Source: Pseudomonas oryzihabitans
Lineage (GTDB): Bacteria; Pseudomonadota; Gammaproteobacteria; Pseudomonadales; Pseudomonadaceae
Direction: 5' to 3'
Assembly (NCBI RefSeq): GCF_006384975.1
Contig: NZ_CP021645.1
Span: 1,640,001-1,704,000 of the forward strand
DNA: 64,000 nt
Part shown: one piece after another, positions 14,629 to 63,250 of the stretch
How positions within the stretch are numbered: the stretch's first letter is position 1
Layout: the number at the start of each line of letters is the position of its first letter
The notes under the pieces: model-generated
Seen by the model: the letters and a program-made list of their open reading frames with translations, nothing else
What the model was told of the DNA's origin: nothing
Database searches by the model: none
Position numbers and translations under genes: made by a program

Positions 14629-14918
14629 TGGAAAACCGCGGAGCGTTTTCCGGGGGCGGCCTTGCAACTTATCGAAGGGATGGTGGATGAGGCTAGCGCC
14701 GTCATCCATCCTACGATGCTGTTGTAGGAGCAGCTGTCTTATCGCAGACGTGCCCGCGATAGACCGTAGGTTGGGTTGAGCGCAGCGAAGCCCAACATGA
14801 CCTCGTGGCGCAGGCCATGTTGGGCTTCGACGATGGAGCCGTCTCAACCCAACCTACGGCGGCACGTAGGAGCGGTCGCTATGGCGCACCGGCATGGCCG
14901 CGATATGCCAGGCGTCGC
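14629..14918. repeat. Repeat-filled gap: hairpin, REP-like units and a 96-bp inverted repeat
   Basis: This gap between the helicase and cysS stop codons contains no gene. At 14632-14655 there is a TGGAAAAC...GTTTTCC hairpin of the kind seen again beside both IS110 copies. REP-like GTAGGAGC units occur at about 14724 and 14866, the second paired with CATGGCCGCGATAT. Between them an imperfect palindrome spans 14764-14859: its outer arms are CCGTAGGTTGGGTTGAG and the exact complement, and its inner arms are CGAAGCCCAACATG and its complement. The fold could act as a terminator or mRNA stabiliser for the convergent genes. Confidence 0.75.
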
Positions 14919-45419: not shown

Positions 45420-45486
45420 CTGCAAGCCTATTATCGCGGCCATGGGCCGCTTGTGTCTTGGCTTGCCGTTAGGATGAAGGTGAGAG

Positions 45487-45628
45487 CAGCAGGGGGCAGG
45501 CTGTAGGGCCGCAGTGTTCGAGCACGTGTAGGAGCCGGTCCCGCCCCCTGCTGACCTCTGACGTCCTAGCCCGAACAGTTGATCGAGCTTCTACCTCGAA
45601 CCGCACAAGCGTGGGCCTTCGTCAGAGG
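45487..45628 (+). ncRNA. Predicted bridge RNA of IS110 copy 1
   Basis: There are two stem-loops. Stem 1 pairs CAGCAGGGGGC (45487-45497) with GCCCCCTGCTG (45543-45553). Its loop holds GGGCCGC (45506-45512), identical to the left target half, and TGTAGGAGC (45527-45535), the complement of the right target half GCTCCTACA. Stem 2 pairs CCTCTGACG (45555-45563) with CGTCAGAGG (45620-45628). Its loop holds ACAGTTG (45575-45581), identical to the element's right end, and CACAAGCG (45604-45611), the complement of the left-end junction CGCTTGTG. This is the target-loop and donor-loop arrangement of IS110 bridge RNAs. Transcript ends are not determined. Confidence 0.8.
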
Positions 45629-45675
45629 CGCTCTCCTCACCAGTATAGGAGGACCTGACGATGAAGGCAGCCTAG

Positions 45676-46593
<918 letters not shown>

Positions 46594-46612
46594 GAAGACA
46601 GTTGCTCCTACA

Positions 46613-46800: not shown

Positions 46801-46996
46801 TTAATCACCGCGCCTCAGGCTTGGTAATAGCTGCCCGTTTCTATAGCACTATGAAGCGCCAATAAAGGGCAACTCTCGACAACAGCGCCCGATCATTGTG
46901 CAGCACCTGGCCTAGATTTTCCGCCACGATGCCCTCAAGGCGGGTCAACACCGGGCTTGTCCGACTTGGCGTCGCTCTTGCAATGCCTTGGGTAGC

Positions 46997-47078
46997 GGTG
47001 GCCAACGGCGGTCACCCCAACCGACAAAGGCGTCAGTTCACCTCCCGGCAACGGGTAAGGGTGACTGGCGCTTTTTTT
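46997..47078 (+). promoter_or_regulatory. NasT-responsive attenuator leader of nasA
   Basis: A hairpin GGTGGCC/GGTCACC (46997-47016) carries the six-base loop AACGGC, with A at position 1 and G at position 4, the signature recognised by ANTAR proteins. Fourteen bases later a long terminator begins: GCGTCAG-T-TCACC with GGGTGACTGGCGC, an inner CCCG-GCAA-CGGG stem with a GNRA tetraloop, then seven T (47072-47078), 27 bases before the nasA ATG. NasT binding should prevent this terminator. A first ANTAR hairpin is expected upstream, but I could not place one securely. Confidence 0.72.
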
Positions 47079-59619: not shown

Positions 59620-59632
59620 AGCAACTGTCTTC

Positions 59633-60550
<918 letters not shown>

Positions 60551-60597
60551 CTAGGCTGCCTTCATCGTCAGGTCCTCCTATACTGGTGAGGAGAGCG

Positions 60598-60739
60598 CCT
60601 CTGACGAAGGCCCACGCTTGTGCGGTTCGAGGTAGAAGCTCGATCAACTGTTCGGGCTAGGACGTCAGAGGTCAGCAGGGGGCGGGACCGGCTCCTACAC
60701 GTGCTCGAACACTGCGGCCCTACAGCCTGCCCCCTGCTG
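60598..60739 (-). ncRNA. Predicted bridge RNA of IS110 copy 2
   Basis: It has the same sequence as in copy 1. Target guides are GGGCCGC (60714-60720) and TGTAGGAGC (60691-60699). Donor guides are ACAGTTG (60645-60651) and CACAAGCG (60615-60622). All read on the minus strand. Confidence 0.8.
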
Positions 60740-60776
60740 CTCTCACCTTCATCCTAACGGCAAGCCAAGACACAAG

Positions 60777-62734: not shown

Positions 62735-63181
62735 TCAGTTGTCCAGGGCCGGGCGCTGGCCGGCAATGGCGATGCGCTTGGGCTTGGCTTCTTCCGGGAT
62801 CACCCGTACCAGCTCGATGCTCAGCAGGCCGTGCTTGAGATCGGCGCCCTTCACCTCGATATGGTCGGCGAGGCGGAAGGACAGCTTGAAGGCACGTTGG
62901 GCGATGCCCTGGTGCAGGAAGGTCACGCTCTCGGCGCTGTTTTCGCGCCGGCCACCCTTGACGGTGAGGACGCCACGCTCGACTTCGATTTCCAGGTCAT
63001 CTTCCTGGAGACCGGCGGCGGCGATCACGATGCGATACTGGTCGTCACCGTGCTTCTCGACGTTGTAGGGCGGATAGGAGCTGCCAGCGTCGTTGCGCAG
63101 GGCGGATTCGAACAGGTCGTTGAACCGGTCGAAGCCGACGGAATGACGGAACAGCGGGGCCAGGGAAAGTACGTTGCTCAT
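62735..63181 (-). CDS. ibpA: Small heat shock protein (Hsp20/IbpA)
   Basis: The 148-residue protein has an alpha-crystallin domain (about 38-130: YPPYNVEKHGDDQYRIVIAAAGLQEDDLEIEVERGVLTVKGGR). The N-terminal FDRFNDLFESAL and C-terminal IAIAGQRPA are as in the IbpA family. It holds unfolding proteins in the cytoplasm for refolding. It has a sigma-32 promoter and a ROSE-type RNA thermometer leader, giving two-level heat control. Confidence 0.95.
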   Translation of the reverse strand: MSNVLSLAPLFRHSVGFDRFNDLFESALRNDAGSSYPPYNVEKHGDDQYRIVIAAAGLQEDDLEIEVERGVLTVKGGRRENSAESVTFLHQGIAQRAFKLSFRLADHIEVKGADLKHGLLSIELVRVIPEEAKPKRIAIAGQRPALDN

Positions 63182-63250
63182 GGTGAATCTCCTGATAGGT
63201 TCAGCAAGTTTCGGTATTGCCTGCGGGACCCGACTTCGGCATCCCGCATG
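63182..63250 (-). promoter_or_regulatory. ROSE-type RNA thermometer of ibpA
   Basis: In the 5' leader TTGCT (63203-63207 on the complement) can pair with the ribosome site AGGAG (63189-63193), leaving the mismatched G characteristic of ROSE elements. An upstream GCGGGATGCC/GGGTCCCGC hairpin completes the layout. Heat would melt the final helix and free the ribosome site. Confidence 0.78.

Follow-up and report, generated by a model that had tools for sequence, protein, structure and literature searches.

A REP-targeting IS110-group element of Pseudomonas oryzihabitans whose left noncoding end reads as a bridge RNA

IS621 of E. coli, a member of the IS110 group, has CT as its core. The parts of PMC11208160 drawn on here describe for IS621 a left-end RNA with two internal loops, one for the target and one for the donor, together with a two-base core, a promoter at the circle joint and REP sequences as targets, and the predicted organization of the element reported in this work is alike in each of these respects. 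A comparable role is assigned to the seekRNAs of ISEc21 (IS110 group) and ISPa11 (IS1111 group), in which an RNA from a noncoding region selects the target, and ISPa11 targets the REPs of P. aeruginosa (both according to the portion of PMC11187229 used here). ISPpu9 and ISPpu10 of P. putida KT2440 are also IS110-family elements located in Pseudomonas REPs, in 7/7 copies each as given in the section of PMC1525189 that concerns them; they may be distinct from our element, and the likeness is one of family and REP sites.

Our element was found in a 64,000-nucleotide stretch of the P. oryzihabitans chromosome, which is the window of this study and contains two copies of it (Table 1). The element is 1155 bp long with one CT core counted, the two window copies show no difference in the 1156 bases compared, and copy 3 (L009), located elsewhere in the 5.36-Mb chromosome, is about 95-96% identical to them. 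Both window copies show the left junction GGGCCG-CT-TGTGTC and the right junction AAGACAGTTG-CT-CCTACA, which match the interrupted site GGGCCG-CT-CCTACA proposed for both insertions in the preliminary description of this DNA. All 3 own-genome copies have a two-base CT core at a specific site, with no longer duplication. The RNA-like region lies upstream of tnp, and the downstream noncoding end comprises just 13 bases, core included, so that an RNA in the right (downstream) end, the feature of the IS1111 group, is not present. Judged from its sequence, the element is a member of the IS110 group with a left noncoding end that encodes a predicted bridge RNA. The same genome also contains a second IS110 element (L324, G000:C1:2721934; 4 copies found, one viewed). 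Its left end includes TCCACCCT and CGTAGAT, which by eye match another palindromic repeat, CATCCACC-CT-ACG, found at the flanks of that element.

Table 1. Positions in the window of the element, its predicted RNA and its target halves
Feature	Position	Strand	Basis
IS110-group insertion sequence, copy 1 (TGTGTC...AAGACAGTTG plus one CT core)	45452..46606	+	junctions; identity with copy 2
Second identical copy, same REP sequence as site	59620..60774	-	junctions, comparison with copy 1
Left target half and core, GGGCCG-CT (interrupted REP arm)	45444..45451	+	
Core and right target half, CT-CCTACA (remainder of interrupted REP arm)	46605..46612	+	
Conserved -10-like hexamer TAGGAT	45470..45475	+	TANNNT at same offset in relatives
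Predicted bridge RNA stem-loop 1, target-binding loop	45487..45553	+	both-side changes in 10/11 stem-1 pairs
Left target guide GGGCCGC	45506..45512	+	covariation, shuffle test
Right target guide TGTAGGAGC, 9/9 complementary to GCTCCTACA	45527..45535	+	covariation, shuffle test
Predicted bridge RNA stem-loop 2, donor-binding loop	45555..45628	+	alignment, consensus fold, pair covariation
Left donor guide ACAGTTG	45575..45581	+	shuffle test; invariant in 13 aligned sequences
Right donor guide CACAAGC	45604..45610	+	6/7 letters invariant; first is T in 3/13 aligned sequences
IS110 recombinase gene	45661..46593	+	in-frame TAG in both window copies; copy 3 open

The preliminary description had placed two stems in the left end, at 45487-45497/45543-45553 (11 bp) and 45555-45563/45620-45628 (9 bp), with four guide words in the two loops; both stems are perfect as placed and all four words were found where they had been claimed. 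Loop 1 matches both strands of the target (bottom and top) and loop 2 does the same for the donor, and the guides of loop 2 as well as both junctions agree with the joined ends ACAGTTG-CT-TGTG given in that description. When the noncoding end was shuffled with its dinucleotides preserved, matches of guide length arose by chance in 293, 19, 321 and 60 of 5000 shuffles, each guide taken alone, whereas the summed length of the longest matches of the four guides, which is 30, was reached in 0/5000 and all four guides appeared at once in 0/5000. The folding energy of the single sequence is ordinary for its base composition (z -1.26; 21/200 shuffles fold as well or better), and inside the element Rfam gave no match at the gathering score; the case for a bridge RNA is a comparative one, and folding energy alone is no proof. 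Elsewhere in the window, Rfam gave a narK RNA (46968-47036) and a ROSE_3 thermometer (63176-63248) above the gathering score.

In 13 aligned sequences, 89.5% of the cells of the window stems are paired, compared with 34.9-44.6% in slid controls, and 40 cells are changed on both sides, compared with a shuffled mean of 12.0 (0/500) and with 2-9 in the slid controls. The signal is stronger in stem 1, where compensatory changes are seen and 10/11 pairs are changed on both sides, than in stem 2, where 81.6% of cells are paired and the outermost pair is kept in just 15%. The RNAalifold consensus has 37 pairs, 13 of them with compensatory change, and a 5' hairpin that precedes the two looped stems in the single-sequence fold is absent from this consensus of 13 relatives. 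A TANNNT motif occurs at the -10 offset of the window element in 26/32 distinct left ends, with the next commonest offset in 5/32, and across the circle joint (46602-46606 joined to 45452) the element reads TTGCTT, 17 nt and TAGGAT, the -35 box and the spacing being assigned by eye. This arrangement is in line with the joint promoter of IS621 (in the relevant part of PMC11208160), and a sigma-70-like promoter is predicted to be assembled solely in the circular form, across the joined ends.

All 3 own-genome copies are located at GGGCCG-CT-CCTACA within REP arms of the form ATCGCGGCCATGGGCCG-CT-CCTACA. Besides these occupied sites, the uninterrupted 14-mer has 43 exact sites in the chromosome (reversed pattern 0); 30/43 free sites were viewed in context and all are REP, 27 by the strict pattern and 3 as variants off by 1-2 letters. 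The element is present in 2/13 genomes of the genus, and in the other one (G010) we found 12 left ends with the element's own DNA, 11/12 preceded by GGGCCG-CT and one (L046) by ATGGCCG-CT, likewise in a REP arm. Copies at unrelated sites, which the preliminary description had named as evidence that would speak against its reading, were not encountered in either genome. The element copies of G010, which belongs to a sister species, mostly break off at 100-N assembly gaps, and copy counts from such drafts are thus too low: among the 11 left ends viewed, 7 enter these gaps, L049, L053 and L054 join other sequence, and L042 joins the right end with no N, which may be an internal deletion derivative or a mis-join. 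Matches in G010 to element positions 1-122 and 1034-1156 had raised the idea of MITE-like mini-elements, and we now read them mainly as collapsed full copies.

Relatives for the comparison of guides and targets came from a contig scan (80/311 confirmed loci kept), a family pattern scan (30 loci) and four further loci, and pattern-based extraction yielded 97 donor-loop places, 86 of them with both ends, which after removal of 3 duplicates of own-genome copies left 83 rows and 32 distinct left ends in a set that is biased toward close relatives, as only loci with the conserved donor motif and with CT-TGT at the left end were admitted. At least 5 of these 83 rows duplicate insertions that the set already contains (L271-L274 duplicate family-scan loci, and L197 duplicates L136), so that distinct insertions number at most 78; the permutation tests were done on non-redundant guides, which repeated rows do not affect, and a left end that lacked a right flank was dropped, leaving 31. 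The 16 non-redundant left guides share 86 identical letters with their own targets, compared with a permuted mean of 59.8 and a maximum of 80 (0/20000 permutations), and the 8 distinct right guides reach 61, compared with 41.5 (6/20000). Loops that fail to covary with their targets had been the other observation named in advance as adverse, and the opposite was found. The loop of P. wadenswilerensis has ACGCCGG and its target is ACGCCGG-CT-CCCACA, that of P. bharatica has AAGCCAGC for AAGCCAG-CT-CCCACA, and that of G034 has AGGTCCGC for AGGTCCG-CT-CCTACA. Poor matches at the fixed register also occur (L119 4/9, L131 5/9, L154 5/9, L160 3/9), and the distant L166, L179, L180 and L183 match at 1-2/9 in that register and fit after a one-base shift by eye, which was not counted.

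We hold it to be nearly certain that the left end of this IS110-group element encodes its bridge RNA, which addresses the REP target via loop 1 and the joined ends via loop 2. The anatomy, the guide-target and guide-donor matches, the exact junctions, the covariation and the conserved -10 are all directly visible in the DNA. The proposal that this RNA programs insertion into the REPs of this genome is supported by the sites and the covariation, while for transcription, RNA binding and recombination, and hence for activity, we rely on published work on IS621 and ISEc21. By analogy with these elements, excision as a circle would create the promoter across the joined ends, transcription from this promoter would yield the RNA of the left noncoding end, and the bridge RNA would bind the DEDD/serine recombinase. 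Loop 1 would then pair with both strands of the REP arm about its CT (GGGCCG-CT-CCTACA) and loop 2 with the ends of the element once these are joined (ACAGTTG-CT-TGTG); insertion would follow from strand exchange at both CTs.

The recombinase gene complicates this picture for the window copies. An in-frame TAG occurs early in the frame of copy 1 (45673-45675) and at the equivalent place in copy 2 (59620-60774); it was unnoticed in the preliminary description. The protein of copy 3, which matches the solved chains of IS621 and ISCro4, has Pfam PF01548 (DEDD) and a C-terminal PF02371, and scores 225 bits against NCBIfam NF033542 (IS110 'RNA-guided transposase', cutoff 140). With the recombinase frame interrupted, the window copies may be inactive on their own, and one could go further and regard them as dead relics that no longer use their RNA and whose spread came before the stop codon or took place without it. 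This is suggested by the early position of the TAG in both frames, where all 17 aligned homologues keep the same residue, but we consider it unlikely. Copies 1 and 2 are identical and both stopped, which indicates that the stopped element was copied, and since copy 3 differs from them by some 4-5% the stop should be older than the latest copying, although gene conversion may have contributed; the ends and guides of the window copies are also intact. We therefore suppose that the window copies probably depend on the open copy 3 and that their recent movement was served in trans. Supply from copy 3 is the simplest account, and gene conversion or readthrough may be alternatives to it.

Another explanation would be that the structured left end merely regulates the recombinase gene, as a 5' leader or as the target of an antisense RNA, with the guide matches as by-products. 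Researchers have found that in ISPpu9 of P. putida, which also resides in REPs, small RNAs and a structured leader act on tnp expression (as presented in the part of PMC8450116 considered here), and regulatory and guide functions may coexist in one left end. However, a regulatory leader by itself gives no reason for loop words that track their targets across 16 left and 8 right guides, nor for the four-word match seen here (0/5000 shuffles), and we judge it very improbable as the full account. That the preference for REPs stems from recognition of the REP hairpin by the protein, with no RNA pairing, is hardly credible. Although IS110 elements had been reported to target REPs at a time when no bridge RNA was known (PMC1525189, in the passage concerned), relatives about 50-56% identical in protein target other words (AGCTG, GCCCCC, GCCGG, GGTCCG), each mirrored at least partly in its own loop, and the Dehalococcoidia and Hyphomonas relatives target other sequences again, with loops that carry those words one base off register (by eye).

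The bridge RNA reading leaves aside one feature that was absent from the preliminary description, namely that the right junction, as AAGACAGTTG-CT-CCTAC, is a dispersed repeat in Pseudomonadaceae, with up to 58 copies per genome. The right junction AGACAGTTGCTCCYAC occurs in 50/298 family genomes (the reversed control gave 0 in all), with 58 copies in G139, 57 in G149, 55 in G165, 52 in G074 and 44 in the single-contig G153, while the donor-loop pattern of the window bridge RNA was found in 8/298, a count that misses G010, where the copies lie in gaps. PF01548 had no match in 6/10 genomes searched (G153, G012, G019, G165, G074 and G254, 4/6 of them drafts), and NF033542 had none in G153, G012 and G019. 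In the window itself, a right-junction-like word with one mismatch, AGACAGCTGCTCCTAC, stands without an element at 14724-14739 (minus), preceded by a REP-like tail.

When 30/44 places in G153 were viewed, 21 proved to be the right ends of cassettes, 8 follow a different palindromic repeat and 1 is of another kind. These cassettes are about 95-200 bp long, their ends resemble TTGTTTTCTGGG ... CCCAAAAGACAGTTG and their palindromic middles vary; a left CTCCYAC copy precedes 13/21 of them by a first-pass pattern, with NCCG ahead of it in 10/13, as in the REP arm. Within one genus, cassettes that lack a transposase and end in AAGACAGTTG-CT-CCTAC, many in REP arms, were found in G153, for which no IS110 recombinase was detected, and in relatives (L275-L304, L358-L377), and among 20 stretches similar to one cassette, fetched from G144, G157, G034, G165 and G153, 19/20 fit the script's pattern. 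Part of the cassettes have the right donor half and CT core of the IS and are seated in its target. Their left ends are another matter: most do not match the right donor guide and read CCTACR-TTGTTTTCTGGG after the CT where the donor rule has TG, which argues against simple bridge-RNA donors. TG does follow the CT in a few (L289, L298 and L369).

Solo right junctions were also considered as excision scars, an idea that we dropped, as the sequence upstream of them is genus-specific and unlike the element's own right end; in addition, 13/15 genomes with 10-58 sites have no protein match at E 1e-40 or better, of which 12, most of them drafts, count, as G010 carries the element hidden in gaps. Simple target-site duplications are not favoured either, with a left copy that differs from the right one in 5/13 G153 cassettes. 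A comparison of one locus with sister genomes agrees with insertion at CT, as a single weak case in which the repeats enclosed by the flanking genes vary among the 25 genomes.

We tentatively raise the possibility, doubtful as it is at present, that IS110-group bridge-RNA recombinases mobilised such transposase-less cassettes and that, together with the recently copied stopped elements, they point to trans-acting IS110 RNPs seeding REP-based repeats. On this proposal, the cassettes would carry, besides the IS right donor half AAGACAGTTG-CT, subterminal inverted repeats like those of the IS, with no RNA and no gene; they would sit in REP arms of the IS-target type in several Pseudomonadaceae, and in some lineages would have persisted longer than the elements. 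If true, IS-ended cassettes with neither recombinase nor RNA would account for some of the mosaic organization of Pseudomonas REPs. A search of open-licence literature, outside which most subscription journals lie, gave no paper with the solo-junction words, and the cassettes may have been described already.

Taken as we read it, the element is a natural RNA-guided mobile element programmed for a repeat of which its own chromosome has 43 or more copies, and its relatives amount to a ready set of guide-target pairs from nature. Published work already covers bridge RNAs, the covariation of their guides and the targeting of REPs by IS110 elements (PMC11208160, PMC11187229 and PMC1525189, in the parts used here), and the sole part that could be new is the cassette proposal. 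The REP sequence and the guides of IS621 differ from those of the window element, whose right target guide matches 9 nt, compared with 4-7 nt on the 3' side of the loops in the pertinent part of the IS621 paper (PMC11208160). Also unlike IS621, 2/3 copies here have a stopped recombinase frame, and the 5' hairpin is not conserved in the 13-sequence alignment. IS1111 members have their RNA downstream of tnp (PMC11187229, in the portion consulted), whereas that of the window element lies upstream. For the cassettes, a comparable case is that of the orphan ssr9 segments, which are bounded by ISPpu9 ends and lack tnp; in the part of PMC8450116 that describes them these orphans are not in REPs, unlike the cassettes, but they provide a precedent for transposase-less cassettes.
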